From Elusimicrobia bacterium RIFCSPLOWO2_01_FULL_54_10 (GTDB lineage Bacteria; Elusimicrobiota; Elusimicrobia; 2-02-FULL-39-32), in assembly GCA_001799975.1 (NCBI GenBank), contig MGUQ01000050.1, forward strand, positions 44,288-61,903: DNA of 17,616 nt. The letters are read 5' to 3'. Under the pieces are notes generated by a model. The model did no database searches. It was not told where the DNA came from and saw only the letters and a program-made list of their open reading frames with translations. A program made the translations under genes and the position numbers. Below are positions 1 to 13,433 of the stretch, one piece after another (positions within the stretch are counted from its first letter, which is position 1; every line of letters starts with the position of its first letter).

Positions 1-776
1 TTCGCCGCGACAATCAGGCTGCGGCCCGAAGTTTCGGCAGTTTCGGCAATCTTGCGAAATGACTTTGCTTCCAAGCTCGCGCCGCCAACCAATGCGCCGT
101 TCACGTTTTTAACGGAAAAGATCTCTTTGGCGTTCTCCGGCTTGACGCTGCCGCCATAGAGAATTGGAATGTTCAGCCCAGCGTCCTGCCCCAGTTCCTG
201 GACCCTGTTTACGAGAAACGACCGGATGGCATCGTGCATTTCCTGGATCTGAACATTTGTGGGAGGTTTTTTTCCTTCCCCGATGGACCAGATGGGTTCA
301 TACGCAATGATGAGCTTGGTAACCTGCTCCGCGGTCAGGCCATTCAAGTCTTCGGCTAGCTGATTCAAAACATAATTCACATGGCCCTTCGCATCTCTGT
401 ACCATTGGGGTTCTCCCACGGCGAGGAGGAGGGTTTCGAATTTTCCATCGGCAGCCTTAAAAGCTGCATGAAGTTTTTCGTTGATTTGTTCGTCCGTATC
501 TCCGGCTTGCGTGACAAAAAGACCTCCCGTGTCCGGTTCATGTAATTGCCTTGTCTCGCTGTGGCCGATGATGCTGCCTTGCGCGCCGGCTTTTTTGAGG
601 AGAGGAATGTTGATTCTTCCCGTGAACTGGCCGACCAGGAGAGAGAACCACTGCCCGATGATTTTGGGAACATTGAACGACCGAGCAAGGGCGGTGGCAA
701 GTTCATCCGTTTTTTTCTCTGTCAAGGGCAAGATGGCAGACGGCGCAAGCGCCGTTTTCGTCCAGCGAAAAGTTTC
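1..776 (-). other. Triosephosphate isomerase region, apparently circularly permuted and cut by window edge
   Basis: Residues about 2455-2712. Seen in family order from beta-2: ALAPSAIL (beta-2 loop), IIGQW (beta-3), GQFTGRINIPLLKKAG, IIGHSETR (catalytic His2526), LLLAVGE, YEPIWSIGEGKKP (catalytic Glu2614), ILYGGSVKPENA and GALVGGASLEA (phosphate-binding loops). The usual N-terminal GNWKMN with the catalytic lysine is absent before beta-2; a stretch I do not recognise stands there. After the last helix the frame reads GRSLIVAA, and the next codon begins AA (complement of window bases 1-2). This fits R-x-L-I-x-A-N-W-K, i.e. beta-1 moved to the C-terminal side. TIM interconverts dihydroxyacetone phosphate and glyceraldehyde-3-phosphate. 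The family call is firm; the permutation is inferred from the last nine residues. Confidence 0.85.
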
Positions 777-3700
777 CTTAAACTGGGTAAGGCTAAAATT
801 GGCCAGCGCTTCGGGACCTCCGCGGGGCTGGACGGATTGGAAGGTGAATTCAAGCGCTTTTACAAGAAATTGCATCATCGTTCTTTCTAAGATTTCATCA
901 GTCAGATCGTTTTGGTACATCTGGATGATGAGGCGCGTGCCATCACTTTTGATAGAGTGAAAGGCCAACCCGGCATTATCCAAATCAGTTGACAATGAAG
1001 AAATGGCTTTGGATGGAACAATTCCCCCTTGCAAGTAGTTTTCCAGATCGACTTCTATCCTCACGGGATTTCGAGTGTTTTCGAGGGATCTGGGAACAAC
1101 GCTGAACCTGAACAAACTGGGGACATTGGCGTTCCAAATCCAGTGCGGGACATGGTGGAAGATGCCGAACCCGATGAAAGCTGCAAACAAGCTGGGAGCA
1201 ACAAAGGTGAACGCAATCCATGCTCCCAAAATGCCCAGCAAGTTTATACCGATAAATGCTGCGACGGCCCATCTGCTTGACAAAATGCTATAGATCCGTT
1301 CAAATGGATGAGATACCAGCCAAAGAAGTCCGCCGCCTACCATGATGCTTGCAAGCCTCTCAAAATTCAGGTCAGTGCCAAAGAACCATGAGGACAATCC
1401 CCAGGCACCCATAACGAAAAAAGCCAAAACCCAGCTTTCCCCCATGGGGTCCAAATGCTTTTCCAACCGTTCGATTTTAGCCTTGGCGCTGATTTCAGAC
1501 ATCCCGTCCATGCCAACGTATTTTTTCATGCGCCGTTCGCGGGAAATGACGGAAAAGAGGGGTGCGGCGGGAAGAGGCGCTGACTCTGCAGACACAAGCT
1601 TCTCATAAACAGGCACGTGCTTGCGCACGATTTCGTACAGGGGCTTGTCTCCCACTTTTTCGTTAACGACCGAGTGGAATAATTTCGCCAGGTCGTCGAA
1701 ATCCATGTCCGAAAGCACTTCCTGAACGCTCCGCGGCCCTTCAGGAGCCCATTCGGGGGAAAGTTCCATGATCATGGAAACCATGGCCTTGGTCATTTCT
1801 TGCCTGATCGTGAGCCAAAGTTCCCCGCCTTCGGAGGCGGCTTTCAAACGCGCCAAGGCAAGGGATGCGGCCAAAATGGCGTTCATGCCCAAATTTCCCT
1901 TTCGTTGAGCGACGGCGATGGGGTCGCTTACATTTTTGCCTCTTTCCGCGGCGGTGGCCAGTTCCAGCCCAAGCAGCGTTCGGTCAATGTCCACCACGCT
2001 TCCCAGATCCGACGCGCGCCTGCCGATAAACACCGGAGCAATCGCATGTTTGACATTGTGAACGGCGTTCCTCACGCCTTTTCCCTTGTAACGGTTGGCG
2101 CGCGCCCAAAGTTCCGAAATTTCCGAGTCATTGGCCGCTTTGATGGTTGCGTCATCCATGCCTTTCCTGAACTGCATTACCACGCCGTCACCGTTTTTCT
2201 GCACCTGGAAAAGTTCGGGGCGCCTTTTTGTGGCGCCATTGGGCTCAATCGTGTCGTCCGTGAGGTGGATGGCTTCCCCTTCGCCCGAAGAAGTGCCCAG
2301 GGGGGTGGAGCCGGAGAAAACCCTGCCGTCTTCGGTGATGACTTCCACCATCACGGTGGGGTTCCCGGAGTTGGTGGGGTTTTCATAAACCCTGAAGTCC
2401 TTGATGACCATGTCCCTGGGCTTGAGGTTCAGCCCGTGGCTGGCCTGCTGCATGATTTCGTTGATTCGGCCGAATTTGACGAGCCGCTCCGTGTTGGCGC
2501 CCCCGCCGAACTTGGCGCCAAGGCTGTTCACCCCAACAGCGAAATCGGCTTCAAATGTGTCATTAGGAGACTGGGAGCGGTGCGAAAGGATCAACTCCTT
2601 CCCGCGTCCCAAAACCACGAGCATAGCCAGGATGGTTTCCGCCACGGTGCCGATCTGATTGGCTTTTGTCAGCTGAGCGGTGATGACGTCCCTGTTTTCA
2701 TCGATGATGCGGTCATTGGTGACCACCAGGTCGTCGCCTACAATCAGGACGCGGTTCCCCATCCTTTCCATTATGAGCTTCCATCCCGCAATGTCCCGTT
2801 CGCTGAAGCCGTCTTCAATGGAAATAATGGGAACGCCTTCCATCATGGCCTGAATGTAGATTTCGAGAAGTTCTTCGCGGTCCATAACGGTGGAGCGCTT
2901 GGAATCCCGGTAAAAGTAATACCGGCCCACGGCTTCTTCCTGTTCAAATTTTTTGCGGAATTCGTTTTCAAGCTCGCTGGCTGCTGGATCAAGCGCTATG
3001 GCCACATGGACGCCGGGAGTGAAACCTTCGTCCCCCATGGCTTGCACCATGAGCCGCCAAAGGCGCTGTTCCGGGATTTTGTCGTTCTTTTCGGGCTCGA
3101 TGATGGGGGCCAGGCCGCCCTCCAGGCCAATTCCCTTGACCGTGCAGCCTTCGGTTTTGTTGATGATTTCAAGCAGCCGGCCCTGAAGCCGATTGATCAT
3201 TTCCTGCGCGTCTTCAATGGTGAGGGGCTGGTCTTCGCGCCCGGGAAGGGAAATGGGCATGAACATGGCTTCCTGCATGCTGATGTTGCTGTCCGGGTAC
3301 TGCTTGAAAGTGTGGGCTCCGCCCATTCCAGAGTTCCGGTAACCCCAAGGGGCGCGGACGGTCATTTCTTTTCCATCCACTTTAATTTTAAGCTCCCACG
3401 GGCGGCCTTGCTTGAGTTTGTCTTTAAGTTTGGGCGACCTGTCCCACCATGTGGTTTGGGAATCAGCCGAAGTTGCTTGCGCTTCCACGGCTTTTCGTTT
3501 TTCCTCGGCGGATTTTTCACGGGTCACGAATTTTTGATATTCGCCGGGGTCCGCCAGGTAATAATCTAACAAGCTCACCACGCCCAGGGGGAATACAAGG
3601 CGTCCTGCGATGATAACCCACTCAGAAGCGTGCAAAATGTCTGTTCCCAGGATGTTGTTAAGCACGAGAATGTTGATGGCGGTTCCGGCGGCAATCAGGA

Positions 3701-6700
3701 CAGCCCCAACAGCGAAAAATACTCTGGCCAGTTTCCAGCTTGCCGCGGGGCCGGCGGCGTTCACCGCCAGGTTGTTGTTGGCGTCTACATAGTAATTTAA
3801 GCCGTTCCGCACGATTCCGGGGAATTTTCCCAAGGGAGAGGTCAGGAACATGCGCGCTTCCCACTGCACTCGCTTCCACCCGCTTTTGTGCGCCTCCGCG
3901 TCCTTCATGTATTTTTTGTGCAGGGTGAGCAAGTCCACCGCTTTCCAATAATGGCCCCGCTCGTGCCACCAGACTTCTATCCAATAGGTGGCGAAGACCA
4001 GGAAGGCGGACAAGATGGCGTCGGGGCTGGCGTAAAGGTGAATGAAGGATTCCGCAAAAGAGCTGTGCAGGGTGGGCAAAACGGGCAGTGAAAAAAGGGC
4101 TGGGATCAATGAGGCATGGAAAGCGACCAAAATGTGGTTGGCGATGACCAGTTCTTTGTGGAGAAAAGATCCCTTGGCTGTGGCTTCAGGATTGGAGCCC
4201 AAGTCCGGCACCGCATCAAAAAGTCGAACATACCGCTCCTTCATAAAGGGGAAAGGAATGTCTCTGCCCATTTTCTCATTGCGGATATTTTCGAGAGACT
4301 TGTTGAATGCCGCAAGGTCTTCGGCCGATCTTTTGCCGGACAGCCGGCGGAATTTGGTTACGAACGCCGCGAACGCGGCGGGTTGGGCAATAAATATATT
4401 GGCGAAAGCGTGTAGCGCGTTTTCCACCCGCATCGGCCTATTTTCTGGAGTCACTCCGCTCAGGAGCCCCCAGTCAATCAAAAACACTTCCAGGGAATCG
4501 CCTTCTCCCACAATCCTGATGTGCTCCAGCAGGTTGTCCAGCCGGTGGACGACATGGTCATGAGCGCTGACGGTTAAATCAAACATCCAGAATGTTTTTT
4601 CAGCCAGTTTTCTTGCGGCCAAATTTTGCTCCGCTTGGCTTAACTGGGCCCACCTGTTTCTCATGGAAAGCTCGTCGCTGATGCTTTCTTCCACAATCAC
4701 GCCGCTCTGGCGCGGATCCGTGAATATAACCCGAGGCCCGATATTCGCCGCCGAGGCTTTTAAGGAGCGTTCGATTTCAAATTCCGGAACGGAAGTCTCG
4801 GTTTCTTTAACCGCGTAAGTCTTGATGGGTTTATTGTCTTCCGTATAGGCGGTTAAATAATGAATCATGGCATAGTTTTGCCTTTGCGAACCGCCGGGAT
4901 CCTGGCTGATGTGATGAACTGTTGCCCTCGTAACATTTGCGGAAATGTCAGAACGGATGGCGGCATGAATGGCAGGCATCAGGCCGGTTTTCTCCCTGCT
5001 CCCGGAGCTTCCCATGTTTCCTTCAACGGTCGCGGGAACCGTTTCTCCGGTTGTGAATAAGAGAATTTTTTTCCAGTCATCGACGGATCCAAGCGTTCCC
5101 GCAATCAGGAAAAGAACCGCAATGGAGCCGGCTAATGCCTGGGCCAGAATGCTCACACCCGGCCCTCTCATGGCGTCGAATCCAAAGAAAGCGAGGAGCA
5201 GGTCCACGAAAACGTCAAACGCGAGGTATCCTAAAACGACTGCTCTGCCGCGGCTTTTCGTGTTGACGACGATGACGCCTTCCAGCTTGCCGATGGTGCT
5301 TTTGCTCCAGTCAATTTCAAGCCCGAACGCCCATGCATAAACGACATGCCGGACTTCTTTGAAGGCATAGATGGGGTAGCTGACGAGGGACAGAATCGTC
5401 CGGAACGGCCTCTTGAGAGGGCTAAACACCCACTCGTACGGGGCCGCGCCGTGGCCTTCCAGTTTGGGTTGATCAAGCGTGCGAGCGCTGAGTCGCGCGC
5501 GGTCAATAATTTGGATAAACGGTGCATCCTTGCTTTTTTCGATTGTGAGTTGGGCGGTGATCTGCGTGAGAAGATTGGAAGCGTCCAGTCCAAAGACGGG
5601 ATTGTTGAGCGATTCCGCCAGAATTCTGCGGATAATGCTGCCCGCCTCCCCGTCCGTGAGAACTTCATCCGGCAAATCCGCCATGCGGAGGATGATCAAC
5701 TGTGTGTCAAGCTTGTCCCGTTCCCCCGCCCCCGCGTTGCGAATCCATGCCAGAACGCCGTCGACGTGAGATTCCCTGTCCGCGCCTTTGGTTTTAAGAA
5801 CTTTCCCAATCAGTCCCATCAGGGTGACATAGGACTCGGCTGAGTTGGTGGGTTTGCCGCGTTCAATCACCTCCAGCATCATTTGACCTTTCGAATATCC
5901 GAGTTTGGACGCCTTGCCAAAAAGCTCTTTTGCCAGACCGAAGTCCGGTTTGATCTGCGTCAAGGCTTCTCTCATGCCCGCGTAATAATTCCGGTAGGCG
6001 TCCGCCAGTTGATCGGCGGCGGCGTCAAAGGTACCGCGGACGAAGCTTCCAGCCACTCCGGCGGAAGCTTTGCTGATTTTTGTCGCGGGAGCCGGCACGG
6101 TCTCGGTCACATCCAATGCTTCCAGCGTCCCGTCTTCCTGAAGGTGGGCGGCCATGACGGCCGCTGCCATGGGCACGGAACCTATGCCGCTCAGCATGCT
6201 GGCGTTTCTCACGGATCCCATGGCGGCTTTGAGCTCGTCTTGCAAATCGGCGGTGGCAACCAGTGGAGTCTGGTATTTCCCCGCAAAGCGCATGGCAAAA
6301 TTGACCGTGGCCCTTTTGCCCTCGTACCGGCCGTTCAAAACGACGGAGCCGCTCTTGCGGACGGGATTTTCAAAGAAAAGCCGGTTTTGGAAAGTGTCCA
6401 GAACGGTTTCCAGCACTTCGGCGTCGATTTTGGCGTCTTTGACTTTGCGGAGGGCTTGCAGTTCCTTTATGTACTCCGAAAGGAGGGATTTAAAATCCGT
6501 TTTTTCAGAGGCGGGGATTTTTCCGCCGGACTCAACTGCGGTCAAATGAGGACGGACCACGACAAACGGAACATTCTTGCTTTTAAGATGCCGTGTGATG
6601 CCGGGAGTGTGGAAACCGCCGGCGATCAAGACCACCCGGTTCTGAGAAGCTTGTTTGGCAAGTTGCAGCGTGTTTTCCGCAAGGATGGAATCTCTCTTGA

Positions 6701-8138
6701 AAGCGAGCTTGTAATAGGATTCCTGCAAAAATTTCATTTCCGGCAGCGTGAGCTTGGGCTGGGCGACGCGGGAAACGGAAACGGGCTTGCCGCTGTAGTT
6801 AAAATCAGGGTTGATCCACGGGAGATGCAACCTGGATTCTTGCTCGTTCACAAAAGAATGGATTTCCTTCCAGCCCTGGTGGTCCATGCTCCCGCCTTCG
6901 GAATAGGTTTGCCAGTCCTGCGGCGAAAATCCTTCGCTCCAGAATTTCTTCTGGATCCTTAAGAAGGAATTCATCTGAACAAGAGTTTTAAAATCCTCCC
7001 GGCCGCTTGTATGAACGGCGTAGACGGAATTTTCCAGACGGCTGATTTCGGACACGATGGATTCGACATTGATTTTTTCGCCCTCCGCCAGATACCGGCA
7101 GTAGGACTCCACTTGAGGAGCGGGAAGTCCGTGAATTTTTGCCATTTGGAGGAGGCCCTGATGGAATTGAAGCGCGCTCAGCTTCCCCAGACGGTAGTTC
7201 AGGCTCATCTGCACGATTCCCGCCAGGGACGCCTTGTCCATGCCGGAACTCAACGATTCCACAAGTTTCTTTCGCTCGTCTTCCAGAGACCGCAAGGAAA
7301 GGGTTTGCTCAAGAGCGTAAACATCCAATATTTGAGAAAGGTTGGGCAAGCCGGCCGCATTCCATGCGGAAGGGGCGGATTTCCGGAGAAACCGCACATG
7401 ATCGGCAAGGCTGGACTGCTGGGCGTCATACAGAGCCGAAGCGCGGTCCAGGGCGAGAAGCTCTTCGGAATAAACCCGGCGCTTGATTCTGTCCAAGCGC
7501 GCGGAAAGCAGGCCGAGCTGCCGCTCAATGCCCCTGCGTTCAGGGTCCATCATCTTGCGGGTTTTCAAGTTGGCCTGGTACACCTGCTCGTCCTCAATGC
7601 CTTGAATCTCCAGGCCGCCTTTGAGAATCGCGGCATATTCTTCGCCCGTGATGGAGGCTTCTTTAAGGAGGGACTCAGCCATGCTTGCTTTGACCGTTTG
7701 ATCGGGCAGAACGGAGATCCACTCCGGGTGGACTCTTCGGGAAGCGCCTTCCACGCAGACCAGAGAAGTTTCAAGCGATTCTAGAATTTTTGAAGCGTTT
7801 TTCTGGGCTCCGTAGTGCTGGTGGGCGTCCTGGATGTGGATGACAAGCGGGGCGGAATCGGCAGGAGCAGCCGGATACCAGCTTTCCACGACCGTCCCCA
7901 AGTTTTCGGGGAGGTGGAGGCCGGTGGAATGCCCGGTGGAAAGGCGGGGCAGCAGAAAAGCAGACGCCGCGGCTTGGTGGACTTCTGATTTTTTAGATTC
8001 CTGCGTTTGGAGAGCGTTTCTTCGTTCGGACCACAAGGAGGCTTCTGCGAAAGGGGCGGAAAATGTCGAGAAGGTGAAGACTGCGAGGACTGAAAGGGAG
8101 AGGATCTGAGAGAATCTGGCGGGTTTTGCGGGGTTCAT
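1..8138 (-). CDS. Giant multidomain membrane protein with embedded permuted enolase and triosephosphate isomerase (3' end outside window)
   Basis: One frame runs from ATG 8138 to the window edge without a stop: 2712 complete codons plus two bases. I checked frame continuity at residue 1, at HERGH (1392), at the enolase small domain (Met1910) and at the last codon. The start is fixed by GGAGG seven bases upstream and by an ATGA overlap with the preceding gene. Domains in order: signal peptide or anchor (1-33, hydrophobic 12-28, Ala-rich cleavage region), Tiki/TraB-like domain (about 95-535), helical region, TM pair (966-990, 995-1019), kinase-like domain (about 1060-1290), membrane region with HERGH (about 1340-1525), permuted enolase (about 1590-2100), TM bundle (2237-2335), a region of about 110 residues I do not recognise, and permuted TIM (about 2455 onward). 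The domain recognition comes from motifs read by eye. What the whole protein does is unknown; a membrane-tethered metabolic assembly is one inference. Degenerate, non-catalytic domains are the alternative. Confidence 0.93.
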   Translation of the reverse strand, partial: MNPAKPARFSQILSLSVLAVFTFSTFSAPFAEASLWSERRNALQTQESKKSEVHQAAASAFLLPRLSTGHSTGLHLPENLGTVVESWYPAAPADSAPLVIHIQDAHQHYGAQKNASKILESLETSLVCVEGASRRVHPEWISVLPDQTVKASMAESLLKEASITGEEYAAILKGGLEIQGIEDEQVYQANLKTRKMMDPERRGIERQLGLLSARLDRIKRRVYSEELLALDRASALYDAQQSSLADHVRFLRKSAPSAWNAAGLPNLSQILDVYALEQTLSLRSLEDERKKLVESLSSGMDKASLAGIVQMSLNYRLGKLSALQFHQGLLQMAKIHGLPAPQVESYCRYLAEGEKINVESIVSEISRLENSVYAVHTSGREDFKTLVQMNSFLRIQKKFWSEGFSPQDWQTYSEGGSMDHQGWKEIHSFVNEQESRLHLPWINPDFNYSGKPVSVSRVAQPKLTLPEMKFLQESYYKLAFKRDSILAENTLQLAKQASQNRVVLIAGGFHTPGITRHLKSKNVPFVVVRPHLTAVESGGKIPASEKTDFKSLLSEYIKELQALRKVKDAKIDAEVLETVLDTFQNRLFFENPVRKSGSVVLNGRYEGKRATVNFAMRFAGKYQTPLVATADLQDELKAAMGSVRNASMLSGIGSVPMAAAVMAAHLQEDGTLEALDVTETVPAPATKISKASAGVAGSFVRGTFDAAADQLADAYRNYYAGMREALTQIKPDFGLAKELFGKASKLGYSKGQMMLEVIERGKPTNSAESYVTLMGLIGKVLKTKGADRESHVDGVLAWIRNAGAGERDKLDTQLIILRMADLPDEVLTDGEAGSIIRRILAESLNNPVFGLDASNLLTQITAQLTIEKSKDAPFIQIIDRARLSARTLDQPKLEGHGAAPYEWVFSPLKRPFRTILSLVSYPIYAFKEVRHVVYAWAFGLEIDWSKSTIGKLEGVIVVNTKSRGRAVVLGYLAFDVFVDLLLAFFGFDAMRGPGVSILAQALAGSIAVLFLIAGTLGSVDDWKKILLFTTGETVPATVEGNMGSSGSREKTGLMPAIHAAIRSDISANVTRATVHHISQDPGGSQRQNYAMIHYLTAYTEDNKPIKTYAVKETETSVPEFEIERSLKASAANIGPRVIFTDPRQSGVIVEESISDELSMRNRWAQLSQAEQNLAARKLAEKTFWMFDLTVSAHDHVVHRLDNLLEHIRIVGEGDSLEVFLIDWGLLSGVTPENRPMRVENALHAFANIFIAQPAAFAAFVTKFRRLSGKRSAEDLAAFNKSLENIRNEKMGRDIPFPFMKERYVRLFDAVPDLGSNPEATAKGSFLHKELVIANHILVAFHASLIPALFSLPVLPTLHSSFAESFIHLYASPDAILSAFLVFATYWIEVWWHERGHYWKAVDLLTLHKKYMKDAEAHKSGWKRVQWEARMFLTSPLGKFPGIVRNGLNYYVDANNNLAVNAAGPAASWKLARVFFAVGAVLIAAGTAINILVLNNILGTDILHASEWVIIAGRLVFPLGVVSLLDYYLADPGEYQKFVTREKSAEEKRKAVEAQATSADSQTTWWDRSPKLKDKLKQGRPWELKIKVDGKEMTVRAPWGYRNSGMGGAHTFKQYPDSNISMQEAMFMPISLPGREDQPLTIEDAQEMINRLQGRLLEIINKTEGCTVKGIGLEGGLAPIIEPEKNDKIPEQRLWRLMVQAMGDEGFTPGVHVAIALDPAASELENEFRKKFEQEEAVGRYYFYRDSKRSTVMDREELLEIYIQAMMEGVPIISIEDGFSERDIAGWKLIMERMGNRVLIVGDDLVVTNDRIIDENRDVITAQLTKANQIGTVAETILAMLVVLGRGKELILSHRSQSPNDTFEADFAVGVNSLGAKFGGGANTERLVKFGRINEIMQQASHGLNLKPRDMVIKDFRVYENPTNSGNPTVMVEVITEDGRVFSGSTPLGTSSGEGEAIHLTDDTIEPNGATKRRPELFQVQKNGDGVVMQFRKGMDDATIKAANDSEISELWARANRYKGKGVRNAVHNVKHAIAPVFIGRRASDLGSVVDIDRTLLGLELATAAERGKNVSDPIAVAQRKGNLGMNAILAASLALARLKAASEGGELWLTIRQEMTKAMVSMIMELSPEWAPEGPRSVQEVLSDMDFDDLAKLFHSVVNEKVGDKPLYEIVRKHVPVYEKLVSAESAPLPAAPLFSVISRERRMKKYVGMDGMSEISAKAKIERLEKHLDPMGESWVLAFFVMGAWGLSSWFFGTDLNFERLASIMVGGGLLWLVSHPFERIYSILSSRWAVAAFIGINLLGILGAWIAFTFVAPSLFAAFIGFGIFHHVPHWIWNANVPSLFRFSVVPRSLENTRNPVRIEVDLENYLQGGIVPSKAISSLSTDLDNAGLAFHSIKSDGTRLIIQMYQNDLTDEILERTMMQFLVKALEFTFQSVQPRGGPEALANFSLTQFKETFRWTKTALAPSAILPLTEKKTDELATALARSFNVPKIIGQWFSLLVGQFTGRINIPLLKKAGAQGSIIGHSETRQLHEPDTGGLFVTQAGDTDEQINEKLHAAFKAADGKFETLLLAVGEPQWYRDAKGHVNYVLNQLAEDLNGLTAEQVTKLIIAYEPIWSIGEGKKPPTNVQIQEMHDAIRSFLVNRVQELGQDAGLNIPILYGGSVKPENAKEIFSVKNVNGALVGGASLEAKSFRKIAETAETSGRSLIVAA
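1134..1430 (-). other. Membrane-helix bundle between the enolase and TIM regions
   Basis: Residues about 2237-2335 of the giant protein contain closely spaced hydrophobic stretches: WVLAFFVMGAWGLSSWFF, LASIMVGGGLLWLVS, and WAVAAFIGINLLGILGAWIA continuing into FTFVAPSLFAAFIGFG. They read as three to four transmembrane helices. The bundle separates the enolase region from the TIM region, so an odd number of helices would put the two glycolytic domains on opposite sides of the membrane, and an even number on the same side. The helix count by eye is uncertain. Confidence 0.7.
1839..3371 (-). other. Circularly permuted enolase region: barrel domain first, N-terminal domain second
   Basis: Residues about 1590-2100. 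The large TIM-barrel domain comes first (about 1590-1900). It keeps the counterparts of yeast His159 (GGAHTF, His1609), Gln167/Glu168 (MQEAM, Glu1623), Glu211 (GLEGGLAP, Glu1673), and the magnesium ligands Asp246, Glu295 and Asp320 (ALDPAASE Asp1717; SIEDGF Glu1775; VGDDLVVTN Asp1802). It also keeps the catalytic Lys345 (TKANQIGT, Lys1825), His373-Arg-Ser (SHRS, His1853) and Lys396 (GAKFGGG, Lys1876). The small domain that normally precedes the barrel follows it instead, from Met1910: KDFRVYENPTNSGNPTV, the flexible-loop counterpart GTSSGE (Ser1950), YKGKGVRNAV and GMNAILAASLALA. The usual S-R-G-N-P has Ser for Arg. No second copy of either half is visible. Enolase converts 2-phosphoglycerate to phosphoenolpyruvate; the retained residues argue for an active site, while activity itself is inferred. 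Confidence 0.88.
3564..4121 (-). other. Membrane region with HExxH and GP motifs, M50/site-2-protease-like
   Basis: Residues about 1340-1525. A hydrophobic helix (ILSAFLVFATYWIEVWW) runs straight into HERGHYWKA, with His1392, Glu1393 and His1396 as an HExxH zinc site. About 67 residues later comes VNAAGPAASWKLARVFF (Gly1463-Pro1464), leading into further hydrophobic helices up to about 1525. In M50 intramembrane proteases the HExxH also lies at the end of a membrane helix and is followed by an aGPlaN segment that heads the next helix. The third ligand motif (N-x-x-P-x-x-x-x-D-G) is not clearly visible; LGVVSLLDYY near 1515 contains an Asp that might substitute. If active, it could cleave membrane proteins or the giant protein itself. 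Confidence in the fold is moderate, in activity low. Confidence 0.45.
4269..4961 (-). other. Kinase-like domain inside the giant protein
   Basis: Residues about 1060-1290. Seen: TYAVKETE (Lys1111, like the beta-3 ATP lysine) followed by EFEIERSLKASA (Glu1121 or Glu1123, like the helix-C glutamate). Next comes VIVEESI, like the hinge. Then HDHVVHRLDNLL (Asn1202) and VFLIDWGL (Asp1222), resembling the catalytic loop and the metal-binding D-W-G of aminoglycoside or choline kinase-like enzymes. The catalytic-loop aspartate is not at the usual five residues before Asn, so the active site may be altered or the domain may be a pseudokinase. The substrate is unknown. Placement between two membrane regions suggests it sits on one face of the membrane, perhaps the cytoplasmic one. 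Confidence 0.5.
6534..7856 (-). other. N-terminal domain of the giant protein, Tiki/TraB/ChaN-like
   Basis: Residues about 95-535 of the giant protein. Seen: a beta-strand followed by IHIQDAHQHYGAQ (Asp104, His106, His108), then LVCVEGA (Glu130), a long helical stretch, and near the end VVLIAGGFHTPGITRHL (His510). The order is a strand with a His-containing loop, a strand ending in an acidic V-E-G, and a late G-G-x-H-x-x-G followed by a helix. This is the layout of the Tiki superfamily (TraB/GumN, ChaN, Tiki proteases), whose conserved Glu and His residues line a putative active site. The domain lies directly after the signal peptide, so it is probably outside the cytoplasm. I recall similar IHIQDAH starts on other proteins of Omnitrophota, but cannot check. 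The superfamily assignment is an inference from motif spacing. Confidence 0.5.
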
Positions 8139-9260: not shown

Positions 9261-10058
9261 TTAGGGTAGGATTGCGAAGACTCGGGCGGGAAAGCCGGAG
9301 CCTTTTTCCGGTTTGGGAAATGTGATCACCGCAAGCGCGCCGAATTCCGGCACCTCGTCAGCATTGGCAATCAACCCGATCTGGTAACGATTTTCCCCTA
9401 AAATGTAGGTTTGGGCCGGATATCGGTCATCCGTGACGTCCAGGCCGCAGTCCGTGTTCAGCGTCTCGTGGCCGATGGCAATGATGTTCCGGTCCTGCAC
9501 CAGGAATTTGAGCGCGTCCACGCTCCAGCCGGGATATCTGGCGCGGCCCTTCACATCGGGATTCTCCATCAACAACGGGTCCGGCCAGCGTTTGCCCCAG
9601 TCGTCCCGCTTCACCACAAATGCTCCCGCAGGAATTTTTCCGTATTTGGCTTCCCAGCGCAGAACATCTTTCATATCAAGCGCCGTGTCCGGGTTTTCCG
9701 TTGTGCGCGAGCTGATGTCAATGACCACGAGCGGCGCAATCATTTCGCGCGGAGGGATTTCGTCCACGGTGCGCAGGCCCTGATGGAAATGCGCGGGCGG
9801 GTCCACATGCGTTCCCCATTGTCCGGTGAACGAATATCTTTCCGCCCGGAAACCGTCACGGCCGTACGAATAAAGCTGTTTCACCTGCTGGTTCGGGAAC
9901 CCTTTCCAGTGGGGAATGCCGGGCCTGAATGGGTGCGTCATATCCACAAATTTTTTGCCGGAAAGCGTTTTGTAAATGTCCCAAAGGGAAGGCTCCGCTC
10001 CCGCACAGGGCGCGGCAGCCAAAATGAAAAACAAAAACGGGATAATTCTATTTCGCAT
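9261..10058 (-). CDS. Exported cyclase-family hydrolase (kynurenine formamidase-like)
   Basis: 265 residues with a signal peptide (MRNRIIPFLFFILAAAPCAGA, 1-21), so the enzyme probably acts in the periplasm. The metal motif WGTHVDPPAHF supplies His84, Asp86 and His90, the H-x-D-x(3)-H signature of the cyclase/KynB superfamily. FVDMTHPFRPGIPHW near the N-terminus and IAIGHETLNTDCG later are also family-like. The superfamily includes metal-dependent arylformamidases, isatin hydrolases and polyketide cyclases; the substrate cannot be read from sequence. The start overlaps the last 11 bases of the preceding peptidase-hydrolase gene, so it is the last gene of that operon. Unlike typical KynB it is exported, and no other tryptophan-catabolism gene is near, so a kynurenine role is unlikely. 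Confidence 0.85.
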   Translation of the reverse strand: MRNRIIPFLFFILAAAPCAGAEPSLWDIYKTLSGKKFVDMTHPFRPGIPHWKGFPNQQVKQLYSYGRDGFRAERYSFTGQWGTHVDPPAHFHQGLRTVDEIPPREMIAPLVVIDISSRTTENPDTALDMKDVLRWEAKYGKIPAGAFVVKRDDWGKRWPDPLLMENPDVKGRARYPGWSVDALKFLVQDRNIIAIGHETLNTDCGLDVTDDRYPAQTYILGENRYQIGLIANADEVPEFGALAVITFPKPEKGSGFPARVFAILP

Positions 10059-11304
10059 GTTTTTCTATCCAGCCGACAATGCGTTTTTCCAGTTCCGAGG
10101 GCGCCTGAGGCGAGGCGCGCTGGAACATCTGCACGCCGTGGGCGGGCGAGCTCTTCTGGCGGATGACGGCCAGATTCGCCCGGCTTTTGGCGGCGCGCTC
10201 AAGCACGCCGACGGTGTGGAACGCATATCTGTCACCGGAACTTGCTGCCAGAAGCACCGGCCGCTCCGCAATGGAGCCGGCCAGATCCTCAGTGGACAGG
10301 CCCTGATAATTCAAACCCGGAGAGAGCAAAATGGCCAGGGCCAGCTTTTTATCCGCGGCAAAAGCGCGGAAAGCAATGTTGGCTCCGATGCTGGCTCCCC
10401 CCACTCCGATTCTTTGGCGGGGAATTTTATGCTGGGTGACCAAAAAATCCGCCGCGCGAGCGAGATCGTCCGACATTTTGGAAAAATCCTGGGTTCCGCC
10501 CTGGCTTTTTCCGTGTCCTCGGAGATCAAAATACAGTGCGCCTATTCCCCGCGTTTTGCAATAGCCGGCAAAGGCCTCCCATTCCGGCCGGTTGCTCAAA
10601 TAGCCGTGAAGGAGGATGAGAGTGACCTTTCCGGGAGCGGGCTTGATGAAATCCCCTTCCAGAGTGATTCCGTCAGAGGTTTTGAATGTCACGAGCTCGG
10701 CAAAAGCGGGGCGGGCGAGCAGGACGGCAAGGGCGCATAAAAGGCCAAAAGCCTTCATCATGGATTTGATGACCGCGGAAGTTTTTTCGATCATGGGAGG
10801 GTGAAAAACCGTCCGGGCTTCGGGGGAGCCGGTGAAACGCCAGTGCCAGGGTTCGTAGCTCACGCCCTGCCAGTTTTTGGGCGGAAATGAAAGTTCAAAT
10901 CCAAAATTTCCGGCGTTTATTTTAAGCCAGGCGGAAGCGGGGGTGGATTCAAACGCGGGTTCATCATCCGTTGCGGGGTGATTCTTATCAGCCAAATCAA
11001 AAACGTACCCCGTGTGATGCTCGGAAAATCCCGCCGGAGCCACCCAGAGCTTGCCGCGGCCCCTTCCGTGTCTGCGTTCGGCATCTTCAAAATAATTTTT
11101 CTGGAAATCATGAGTGCGGTGCGATGAAATGACCACAATTCCCACGCCGTCCCGGGACGCGGTGGAACAAAGGCGGATCAAGGCTTCGACGGCCTCCGGC
11201 TGGGCCAGGTAAGTTTTGGACGGATCGCGCGTGATGTTTTTCGGGATTTCAGACAGGGCTTCCTCAGGCGCTACGGAAAAAGGCATATGGAAAACAAATT
11301 TCAT
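10048..11304 (-). CDS. VanY-like D,D-carboxypeptidase fused to an alpha/beta hydrolase
   Basis: 418 residues in two parts. Residues about 1-165 are an M15 zinc peptidase: VISSHRTHDFQ, SEHHTGYVFD (His96, Asp103) and SYEPWHWRF (Glu151, His154) match the VanY family, which removes the terminal D-Ala of peptidoglycan stems. Residues 182-202 are a hydrophobic segment like an internal signal peptide (MMKAFGLLCALAVLLARPAFA). Residues about 203-418 are an alpha/beta hydrolase with LLHGYLSNR, the nucleophile GASIG (Ser305), SGDRYAF (Asp358) and SPAHG (His389). ATG 11304 forms an ATGA overlap with the permease gene; a longer frame upstream is antisense-like noise within the permease. The N-terminal part has no signal peptide, so the peptidase may be cytoplasmic while the hydrolase faces the periplasm. 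This is unusual and may instead mark an internal start near 10761, although I see no Shine-Dalgarno there. Confidence 0.88.
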   Translation of the reverse strand: MKFVFHMPFSVAPEEALSEIPKNITRDPSKTYLAQPEAVEALIRLCSTASRDGVGIVVISSHRTHDFQKNYFEDAERRHGRGRGKLWVAPAGFSEHHTGYVFDLADKNHPATDDEPAFESTPASAWLKINAGNFGFELSFPPKNWQGVSYEPWHWRFTGSPEARTVFHPPMIEKTSAVIKSMMKAFGLLCALAVLLARPAFAELVTFKTSDGITLEGDFIKPAPGKVTLILLHGYLSNRPEWEAFAGYCKTRGIGALYFDLRGHGKSQGGTQDFSKMSDDLARAADFLVTQHKIPRQRIGVGGASIGANIAFRAFAADKKLALAILLSPGLNYQGLSTEDLAGSIAERPVLLAASSGDRYAFHTVGVLERAAKSRANLAVIRQKSSPAHGVQMFQRASPQAPSELEKRIVGWIEKHAK

Positions 11305-12611
11305 CTTTTTTTCAGAATAAAATAAATGGGAATGCCCAACGCAACGATGGCCAGCCCCCAGAGGGAATCTTTGGGATTTTGAACCGCCGTGTTCACCACA
11401 ATCCACCCCATTCCCAGAATGAAAAGAACCGGAAGGACCGGATAGCCAAAACATTTGTAGGGAACCGCGCCCGGGTCACTCGCATTTTTTGAACGCAAAA
11501 TGATGAGGGAGAGGCCGTTGATGGCGGCAAAAAAGACCATGGGAACCGTCACGTAATCCAGAAGCTGGTCGAAGGTTCCGGTGACCGCAAGCAGGCAGGC
11601 CCAGATGCCATGAAACCAGATGGCTTTCGAAGGTGTCGCGAAATTGGGATTGACTTCCCCCGCGGCTTGGGGCAAAAGGCCGCTGCGCGCCATGGCAAAA
11701 ATGACGCGCGGGCCTGTGAGAATTGTGGCCGAAAGGCAGCCGATGACCGAGACCGCGACCATGGCGCCGATCACGTTTCCAACGGTGACTCCAAAAAGCG
11801 CCTGGGAGGCCACCGTCACGATGCGGCTTTTGTTTTCGGGTGTGACAAAGGGCTCGGCGTTGACGGGAAGCGCGTAAAGATAAAGGCAGGCCAGCGCCAG
11901 ATAAATCAGCATCACCAGAAGGCACCCGAAAAAGAGCGAGAAAGGAAGCGTCCGCGCGGGGTCTTTGACTTCACCCGCGACATAAACCGTGGCGTCCCAG
12001 CCGGAATAAGTGTACATGACGGGGATCAGGGCCAGAGGAAACGCGTAAAGAAAAGGCCGCGTGCTTTCAAGGGAGACGCCAAAGTTGGAGAACGAGCCGT
12101 GCCCGACGATAAATCCCGCGAAGATGAGGCCGAAAATCAGGGCCAGTTTGAGCACCATGAAGGAATCCTGAAGCCACGCGCCCTTGAGCACGCCGCGGTC
12201 ATTCACGAACGAGATGAGGAGAATGGAAGCGACGGCAACAGTTTTGGCCACAACCGGGTCCATGATGCCGGCGTATTTGGTGACGCCGATGGCCAGAAAC
12301 GCGGCGGTGCCGGGAATGGTGACTAAACTGGACGAGAACCCTGCTAAAAATCCTAAAAATGGGCCGAAAGCCTGGGTGATATAAACAAATCCTCCCCCGG
12401 CCCGGGGAAACCGCGTGGAAAGCTCGGCATACACAAGGCCGCCCGCAAGAGAGAGTAATCCTCCGACGATCCAGGCGGCAAGAATGGCAGGGGGATGGGG
12501 CAAGGTTTGGTAAATTCGTCCCGCGGTGATGAAAATGCCGATGCCGATCATGTTGCCGGCCACTAGCATGGTGCAGGAAAAAACTCCCAGGTCTCTTTTC
12601 AGTTCAGTCAT
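11301..12611 (-). CDS. APC-superfamily amino-acid permease
   Basis: 436 residues, almost wholly hydrophobic with about twelve membrane helices. The first helix carries LVAGNMIGIGIF, the substrate- and sodium-site signature of the APC superfamily. YAELSTRFPRAGGGFVYI after helix 2 and YSGWDATVYVAGEVKDPART in the middle are typical of the LAT/amino-acid transporter branch. It moves amino acids across the inner membrane, probably by exchange or proton coupling; the substrate is unknown. ATG 12611 has no evident Shine-Dalgarno and lies only ten bases after the terminal repeat of the palindromic element, which therefore forms the whole upstream region of this gene. Its stop overlaps the start of the VanY-hydrolase gene, suggesting that import and peptidase act together, for example in re-use of released D-alanine (inference). 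Confidence 0.92.
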   Translation of the reverse strand: MTELKRDLGVFSCTMLVAGNMIGIGIFITAGRIYQTLPHPPAILAAWIVGGLLSLAGGLVYAELSTRFPRAGGGFVYITQAFGPFLGFLAGFSSSLVTIPGTAAFLAIGVTKYAGIMDPVVAKTVAVASILLISFVNDRGVLKGAWLQDSFMVLKLALIFGLIFAGFIVGHGSFSNFGVSLESTRPFLYAFPLALIPVMYTYSGWDATVYVAGEVKDPARTLPFSLFFGCLLVMLIYLALACLYLYALPVNAEPFVTPENKSRIVTVASQALFGVTVGNVIGAMVAVSVIGCLSATILTGPRVIFAMARSGLLPQAAGEVNPNFATPSKAIWFHGIWACLLAVTGTFDQLLDYVTVPMVFFAAINGLSLIILRSKNASDPGAVPYKCFGYPVLPVLFILGMGWIVVNTAVQNPKDSLWGLAIVALGIPIYFILKKR

Positions 12612-12620
12612 AGTTTTTTG

Positions 12621-12747
12621 ACATGATTTTCAGTGATTGCTTCGAAACGACGTTCGGAGTGGGAGGCTCCAGCGAAGCTGGAGGGAGAACCCCCGTTGGT
12701 TCTCCGTGAGAAGTCCGGCGTGGAGAAGCAATCACTGAAAATCATGT
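12621..12747. repeat. 127-bp palindromic intergenic element with 23-bp perfect terminal inverted repeats
   Basis: The left end (12621-12643, beginning ACATGATTTTCAGTGATT) is the exact reverse complement of the right end (12725-12747). Inside lie CTCCAGC-GAA-GCTGGAG (12667-12683), GGAGAACC / GGTTCTCC (12684-12691 with 12698-12705) and an overlapping TTCTC-CGT-GAGAA (12700-12712). The element fills all but a few bases of the gap between the methyltransferase stop and the permease start. A truncated relative lies at 9196-9258. It has no coding capacity and no clear target-site duplication. It resembles a MITE or a REP/BIME-type repeat. As RNA it would form a long stem that could terminate transcription or stabilise message between two genes read in the same direction. 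Confidence 0.9.
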
Positions 12748-12755
12748 TAATTCAA

Positions 12756-13433
12756 TCATTTCTTTGAGGCTAATATCACCAAATGAGTCGAGCCATAGGT
12801 CCTCAACAGAGCGGACAGCGGTTGCAACATTTTTGCAATCCAGATTTGTGAGAGTAAAATCTTCACGGCCTCCCAATGGCGCACGGCTTTGAACCAGCTT
12901 TCAAACTGATACCACAGACGGTCGTTCAAGTATACAAGTTTTACTATTTTAAATCGTTCTCCGACGAAGCGGATGAACGGATCAAATTTCCCGGGGCGCA
13001 TGTAGTCGCTGAAAAGCACCGTTCCATTCGTTTTCATGAGCCGCTCAATTTCAGACAGGGCTTCGCCGCGGTGGGGTTCGGGGACATACTCATGAATGCC
13101 ATCCGCCACGACCACCAGGTCGAATTTTTCCGCTTGCCTGGGAATTCCCGGGAATTGCGCGGTGAAAAAATGGATTCCCTTGTTTTGTGGCAAGTTTTGA
13201 GCTTTTTGGACCGCGACGGCAGACACGTCACAGGCTGAGACATGGGCCGCAACGGATTTGAGCCGCCGGGTCAGGTGCCCCAGCCCGCAGCCGATGTCCA
13301 AGACATGCTCGAACCGTTTTCCCGTGTTTTTGAGCAATTCCTCGACGGAGCGGTGCCTCAAAATTTCCGCCGCGCGGCCGGAGTAATTCCACGGATCCGC
13401 GTCTTTTTCATAGAGCGTCTGGTAATCATTCAT
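12756..13433 (-). CDS. SAM-dependent methyltransferase, NodS-like
   Basis: 225 residues. The N-terminal YEKDADPWNYSGRAAEI resembles the PDPW segment that opens NodS-type methyltransferases. Motif I is VLDIGCGLGHLT (Asp46 in it), followed by acidic VSACDVS and FDLVVVADGIHEY (motif IV region), so the class I Rossmann fold and cofactor binding are clear. The C-terminal half (from LFSDYMRPGKFDPFI) holds a basic, aromatic helix pair and is less familiar. ATG 13433 is chosen because its frame opens at the conserved region and overlaps the preceding gene by eight bases (ATGAATGA); the frame extending further upstream lies within that gene and is proline/basic noise. The acceptor is unknown; a sugar, lipid or small-molecule target is possible. 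It is the last gene of the envelope-sensing operon, before the palindromic element. Confidence 0.85.
   Translation of the reverse strand: MNDYQTLYEKDADPWNYSGRAAEILRHRSVEELLKNTGKRFEHVLDIGCGLGHLTRRLKSVAAHVSACDVSAVAVQKAQNLPQNKGIHFFTAQFPGIPRQAEKFDLVVVADGIHEYVPEPHRGEALSEIERLMKTNGTVLFSDYMRPGKFDPFIRFVGERFKIVKLVYLNDRLWYQFESWFKAVRHWEAVKILLSQIWIAKMLQPLSALLRTYGSTHLVILASKK

Follow-up and report, generated by a model that had tools for sequence, protein, structure and literature searches.

Results

A giant open reading frame contains an enolase with its halves in reversed order

The window analyzed here is a 17,616-nucleotide stretch of contig MGUQ01000050.1 from the draft genome of Elusimicrobia bacterium RIFCSPLOWO2_01_FULL_54_10 (1.89 Mb, 129 contigs, 79% complete, with a canonical enolase gene, eno, on another contig). 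On its minus strand, where all features described below also lie, a giant open reading frame runs from window position 8138 to position 3 and continues past the window edge, encoding 3122 residues over the contig (locus L003), of which 2712 lie inside the window. Pfam finds three families in the 2712 in-window residues: Enolase_C at residues 1615-1897 (E 1.9e-41, 142.7 bits against a cut-off of 21.5), Enolase_N at 1923-2108 (E 1.3e-17, 64.6 bits against a cut-off of 35), both above cut-off, and TIM at 2503-2700. The two separate enolase models place the barrel ahead of the small domain in one frame, as the sequence-only reading had described, and Pfam reported no second Enolase_N stretch in the 2712 residues scanned, that is, no normal Enolase_N upstream of the barrel. 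That reading had set the enolase at 1839-3371 (residues 1590-2100); the conserved unit, as delimited by Pfam, BLASTP, relatives, and the predicted structure, is wider and spans residues ~1560-2110 (window 1809-3461). Its barrel half (residues ~1590-1902; 2433-3371), defined by Pfam and alignment, holds the active-site positions from H1609 through K1876, and its small domain (residues ~1908-2110; 1809-2417), defined by the Enolase_N match, follows.

The active site is complete, again as first read: H1609, E1623, E1673, D1717, E1775, D1802, K1825, H1853-R1854-S1855, and K1876 are present, as is the GTSSGE loop (residues 1948-1953; 2280-2297), in which the alignment identifies S1950 as the counterpart of the catalytic-loop serine. 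When 124 permuted domains (from proteins P0001-P0121) were aligned with 7 canonical enolases rearranged to the permuted order, all 13 of the catalytic, metal-binding, and loop positions checked were identical in 124 of 124 permuted domains and in 7 of 7 canonical rows. We take these positions to be the counterparts of yeast H159, E168, E211, D246, E295, D320, D321, K345, H373, R374, S375, K396, and S39. Structure prediction of the 551-residue unit from 105 alignment rows gave a compact model, confident throughout (predicted local distance difference test score, pLDDT, 85.1; predicted template modeling score, pTM, 0.85), and because the unit is predicted as one compact and confident body, the two halves would be expected to meet. 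Structure aligners covered only the barrel of the predicted unit, which has the enolase barrel fold. Among the matches of profile A1 to solved structures, the best 60 of 67 are all named enolase or phosphopyruvate hydratase, with the best stretch in the barrel. The order of the halves and the catalytic residues are plain from the protein itself, and residues 1560-2110 probably constitute a circularly permuted enolase.

The permuted enolases form an old and widespread family

The survey of other genomes that the sequence-only reading had proposed, carried out here as protein searches and a genome scan, found the same barrel-first order in many of them. The protein searches scored about 8000 candidates, and the best 120 matches of each are described. 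With residues 1560-2110 as the query, 311 proteins were found at E <= 0.001 among 7991 scored candidates; the best 120 of the 311 are 1500-4300 amino acids long and 45-52% identical, except for P0006, which is the window's own protein in truncated form. The best 120 proteins of a profile search are 580-976 amino acids long and 44-51% identical. BLASTP detected both halves in 118 of 121 proteins (P0001-P0121), with the barrel first in every one of the 118, in a set that is biased toward this order because it was found with a permuted-order query; the barrel alone was detected in P0006, P0013, and P0038. An order shared by 118 of 121 proteins is not due to chance.

A scan of genome contigs, all of whose records are titled metagenome-assembled genome (MAG), located at least 70 permuted loci in about 13 phylum-level groups; it relied on two short peptide patterns, so that 70 is a floor. 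The loci fall in Omnitrophota, WOR-3/Stahlbacteria, WOR-1/Saganbacteria, Planctomycetota, Acidobacteriota (with Aminicenantes and Thermoanaerobaculales), Krumholzibacteriia, several Gammaproteobacteria, Myxococcales, Deltaproteobacteria, Desulfonatronum, Gemmatimonadales, Dehalococcoidia, Spirochaetes, and Cloacimonadota, with a single MAG record behind each of Spirochaetes, Dehalococcoidia, Desulfonatronum, Gemmatimonadales, and Cloacimonadota. Chromosomes CP070664, CP070750, and CP070780 are among the records with permuted loci. Among 59 other genomes, relatives of the window genome, only G029 gives a full-length match to the query (E 6.8e-132); a 682-residue frame in G002 that looked unusual proved to be a canonical eno (75.5% identity).

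In trees of the barrel, a branch supported in 100/100 parts permuted from canonical rows, both with 46 versus 28 rows (the window row and P0098 omitted) and with 67 versus 6 (the window included, 6 of the 28 canonical rows kept, and a long-branch warning from the tree program). We read this as pointing to one origin of the permuted enolases, the trees being unrooted. The permuted enolases are an old protein family. Proteins P0002-P0005 each carry two permuted units in tandem, each near an M50-like stretch (see below); in G063, G064, G069, and G070 (WOR-3/Stahlbacteria) the canonical and permuted genes are ~2.3 kb apart in the same orientation, and at L039 the permuted gene (9338-11947) is followed on the same strand by a canonical eno (11994-13277). 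These arrangements are compatible with the origin by tandem duplication that the sequence-only reading had envisaged, and prove nothing. Because databases automatically label the permuted proteins "enolase," "PEP-utilizing enzyme," or "hypothetical protein," the permutation is easily overlooked.

An M50-like membrane domain precedes the permuted enolase

Directly ahead of the enolase lies an M50-like membrane domain (residues 1320-1559; 3462-4181) that is, in its best matches, 36-43% identical to the segments ahead of other permuted enolases; in 65 of 71 loci the segment in this position resembles window residues 1320-1560. A motif search found in it HERGH (residues 1392-1396; 3951-3965), an HExxH motif. 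In alignment A2, which comprises 94 of the 120 proteins listed by the profile search, conservation is 90% or higher at each of its H, E, and H positions. HExxH occurs anywhere in 232 of 241 proteins and the full HExxH-GP-LD-DPG pattern in 187 of 241, some of the proteins being fragments. The region thus resembles peptidase M50 of the site-2 protease type (PF02163) in having HExxH followed by the GP and LD..DPG motifs in a hydrophobic setting. It differs in that P0018 (21.7 bits) and P0083 (18.9 bits) fall below the PF02163 cut-off of 27.2 bits and Pfam gives no PF02163 match at E <= 1 in the window protein. PF02163 is listed as a precomputed domain for P0066, P0188, P0208, and P0213; comparison of the stretch by sequence with solved structures returned nothing convincing (E 0.23 and 0.34). 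Since its hydrophobic segments are followed by basic residues, the positive-inside rule would place the enolase on the cytosolic side.

The permuted enolase occurs in three forms of protein: free-standing proteins of ~850 amino acids, dikinase-type fusions of ~2050, and giant proteins such as that of the window. Proteins of 1900-2400 amino acids usually continue into PPDK_N and PEP-utilizers domains, and in the ~2050-residue class (P0018 and others, from several phyla) the M50-like domain, the permuted enolase, a long helical-looking stretch, PPDK_N, and the PEP-utilizers domain are joined in one protein. A histidine motif, G-[GS]-x-[TS]-S-H-x-A, is present in 105 of 111 proteins of 1900-2400 amino acids, the exceptions being P0006, P0007, P0008, P0050, P0083, and P0109. 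The ~2050-residue members thus share both domains with phosphoenolpyruvate (PEP) synthase and pyruvate phosphate dikinase (PF01326 PPDK_N; PF00391 PEP-utilizers), but they carry a permuted enolase at the other end, and no PEP/pyruvate barrel is reported in P0018, the sole fully scanned member with a PPDK_N match; by Pfam, the window protein has neither the PPDK_N nor the PEP-utilizers domain. Among the giants, Omnitrophota frames L037 and L049, of 10113 and 10304 residues, contain the permuted enolase, which in L049 is accompanied by glucosamine-isomerase-type, PIG-L, and 2-hydroxyacid dehydrogenase domains; the giant Omnitrophota frame L064 joins it to a UDPGP domain, and P0009 to PFK, PGM, and PGI. 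Searches of P0001, P0018, and P0150 against the anti-phage defence profiles of PADLOC gave no match at E <= 0.01, and the sole PHROG match, considered as a sign of a phage protein, was to the enolase-type family phrog_35063 and is uninformative.

Absence or breakage of canonical enolase in planctomycete carriers

The planctomycete order that includes G104 comprises 38 genomes, of which 22 have only the canonical enolase, 9 only the permuted one, none both, and 7 neither (Fisher p 7e-5, a value that does not allow for shared ancestry). Of 397 genomes drawn from the class of G104, 377 have an Enolase_C match; each genome was judged by its best E-value, and those with a weak best score or several matches were then examined with profile A1. 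Twenty-five of the 397 carry the permuted gene: 19 without a canonical enolase, 2 with broken remnants of one, and 4 (G090, G294, G368, and G495) with an intact canonical copy. The 21 carriers without an intact canonical eno are G071, G078, G087, G104, G108, G109, G127, G135, G136, G137, G329, G374, G380, G404, G407, G410, G448, G454, G463, G469, and G484; in G380 and G484 the canonical eno survives only as remnants with a change of frame and lost stretches, and the permuted gene of G136, G137, G109, and G407 is itself either split or truncated at the end of a contig. Weak matches in frames of ~380 amino acids, found in a few of the 19, we take for other enolase-superfamily proteins. An Enolase_C match is present in 352 of the 372 noncarriers.

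PGK is found in 20 of these 21 genomes (missing in G136) and pyruvate kinase in 17 (missing in G404, G127, G136, and G108). In G448 and G469, genomes of 5.8 and 6.2 Mb, the permuted gene, on contigs of 5,840,692 and 6,198,157 bases, gives the single Enolase_C match, and PGK and pyruvate kinase are also present. In the trees the carriers of this class do not form one permuted clade but at least two, around L122/L053 and L137/L138, which suggests that the canonical enolase was replaced more than once. In 50 genomes with permuted loci, inside and outside the planctomycetes and covering 50 of the 70 loci, a full-length canonical match was found in 37, a fragment in G077, and none in 12.

Other parts of the giant protein and its neighborhood

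At the start of the giant protein (3-8138), hydrophobicity analysis shows a signal-like hydrophobic segment (residues 12-30). The region that follows (residues 38-530; 6549-8027), which begins near HIQDAHQHYGAQKN, is common to the giant proteins P0010, P0038, and L064, and its match to L064, an Omnitrophica record, has an E of 2e-34 and would point to a probable Omnitrophota affinity of the window. The TIM region (residues 2503-2700; 39-632), a Pfam match to profile positions 68-244 of 245 only, is incomplete: motifs IIGHSE and AYEPIW, with their H and E, are present, and the first 67 profile positions, where the catalytic lysine of the N-terminal strand normally sits, are absent. Residues 1080-1320 (4179-4901), which have no Pfam match, look kinase-like by eye (HRLDNLLEHI ... 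FLIDWG), with similar stretches in L064, L049, and L065. Elsewhere in the window, a single frame at 10048-11454 seems by eye to have parts like a D-Ala-D-Ala carboxypeptidase and an alpha/beta-hydrolase, and may be two genes sharing a frame.

Giant open reading frames of Omnitrophota have been described as having few annotated domains, and surface roles have been proposed for them, in the portion of PMC10066038 available; its main text does not contain the word enolase. The window protein is like them in being one long frame with a signal-like start, several hydrophobic segments, and an N-terminal region matching L064, and unlike them in having recognizable glycolytic domains.

Discussion

Collectively, these analyses make it probable that there is a family of permuted enolases with an M50-like core, that most of its members are ordinary enolases, and that it has displaced the canonical enzyme in some planctomycetes. 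In the model we favor, the eight-stranded barrel precedes the small domain; a short linker would join the last barrel helix to the first small-domain strand, and the small domain would fold back so that the catalytic-loop serine reaches the barrel active site. The core unit consists of the M50-like membrane domain with the permuted enolase behind it, and most of the family would carry out the ordinary interconversion of 2-phosphoglycerate (2-PGA) and PEP at the cytosolic face of the membrane, where we infer the catalysis, the side, and the direction. In some planctomycetes this form would have displaced the canonical enolase; in many members from other phyla the unit is continued by the helical stretch, an ATP-binding domain of PPDK_N type, and a phosphohistidine (PEP-utilizers) domain; and in the window it has been built into a giant protein of Omnitrophota type beside an incomplete TIM, in a copy that has drifted with its catalytic residues kept.

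Several observations weigh against this model. Permuted and canonical enolases (PF03952 and PF00113; TIGR01060) have both domains, the active-site residues, the flexible-loop serine, and the barrel fold in common, but the permuted family reverses the domain order, has insertions in both halves, is fused behind the M50-like domain, and sits on a long branch. The arginine of DSRGNPT is lost throughout the family, being alanine in 123 of 124 domains and serine in the window (NSGNPT), which may point to an altered interface, and GDEGG reads GLEGG in all 124, the window included; the window protein reaches 200.9 bits against the cut-off of 300 of the eno equivalog TIGR01060. An earlier fold prediction from 9 rows was poor (pLDDT 65, pTM 0.46). 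The 20 of 372 noncarriers with no Enolase_C match at all indicate that a canonical eno may also be missing through incompleteness of a draft, and where the canonical enolase coexists, as in 37 of 50 genomes, glycolysis does not depend on the permuted form. Finally, of 180 positions with at least 95% constancy across the other 104 rows, the window copy deviates at 29, against a median of 1 for those rows. It is the most drifted of the 105, the next being P0009 (25), also a giant protein, and its terminal branch, of 0.86 against a median of 0.14, adjoins a Spirochaetes record and giant Omnitrophota copies.

Some of these points would be accommodated if the enolase scaffold served another reaction, or acted as a sensor of PEP or 2-PGA that controls the membrane domain, with the carriers tolerating a gap in the pathway or using another route: outside the planctomycete clades most genomes still have a canonical enolase, the arginine of DSRGNPT and the aspartate of GDEGG are altered across the whole family, and the constant coupling to an M50-like domain would suit a regulatory role. 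Such a role would leave unexplained why none of the 13 catalytic positions has changed in any of the 124 domains, and why in one class 21 of 25 carriers have no intact canonical gene yet retain PGK and pyruvate kinase, and we regard it as unlikely. From the sequences, the permuted family is most likely a working enolase. Because coexistence is usual outside the planctomycete clades, we infer that the permuted form is more than a spare housekeeping copy and is likely to have a further role connected with the membrane domain.

The suggestion of the sequence-only reading that the fold may assemble as a working permutant is thus well supported for the family, in which carriers have lost the canonical enolase, and stays uncertain for the window copy, which is the most drifted and whose genome has a canonical eno. 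This copy could be an inactive, enolase-like piece that serves structurally within a giant surface protein, beside a TIM without its first 67 profile positions; its changes at family-constant positions, the runner-up's being likewise a giant, and the surface roles proposed for sparsely annotated Omnitrophota giants in the available portion of PMC10066038 fit such a reading, to which we give a substantial but lesser chance. Under free drift, however, the checked catalytic residues would not be expected to be all kept, as they are, and the predicted fold is confident; we put activity of the window copy at somewhat better than even. That the order arose as an assembly chimera or frame accident joining pieces of two enolase genes might be entertained for a draft of 129 contigs, but it recurs at 45-52% identity in proteins of many sources, in chromosomes CP070664, CP070750, and CP070780, and in two genomes with a genome-sized contig, which refutes this explanation for the family and makes it scarcely credible overall.

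Enolase is among the most constant enzymes of central metabolism. Among the papers listed by searches of the open-licence PubMed Central literature, none reports a natural permuted enolase in its title or the first part of its abstract, a scope outside which bioRxiv and most subscription papers lie; PMC2575518, which holds both terms, describes none in the part of its text available. On a broader view, to which we give nearly even chances, the permuted form would be a second, old enolase, present in about 13 phylum-level groups, anchored at the membrane by a site-2-protease-like domain, and capable of supplanting canonical eno altogether, as the decaying gene in two planctomycetes would illustrate. 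Its ~2050-residue form, a single membrane protein, would make PEP from 2-PGA and pass the phosphate on through a histidine, the enolase barrel perhaps replacing the missing PEP/pyruvate barrel, and the giants would have gathered the unit together with pieces of PFK, PGM, PGI, or TIM. The fixed link to the M50-like domain suggests either that PEP is produced at a membrane tether or that PEP or 2-PGA controls a protease. To our knowledge, neither is known from any described enolase. A natural permutant that replaces enolase would provide a direct test of how freely the two halves of the enzyme can be reordered and of how an essential glycolytic gene comes to be displaced, and draft genomes labeled as missing enolase may in fact be complete.
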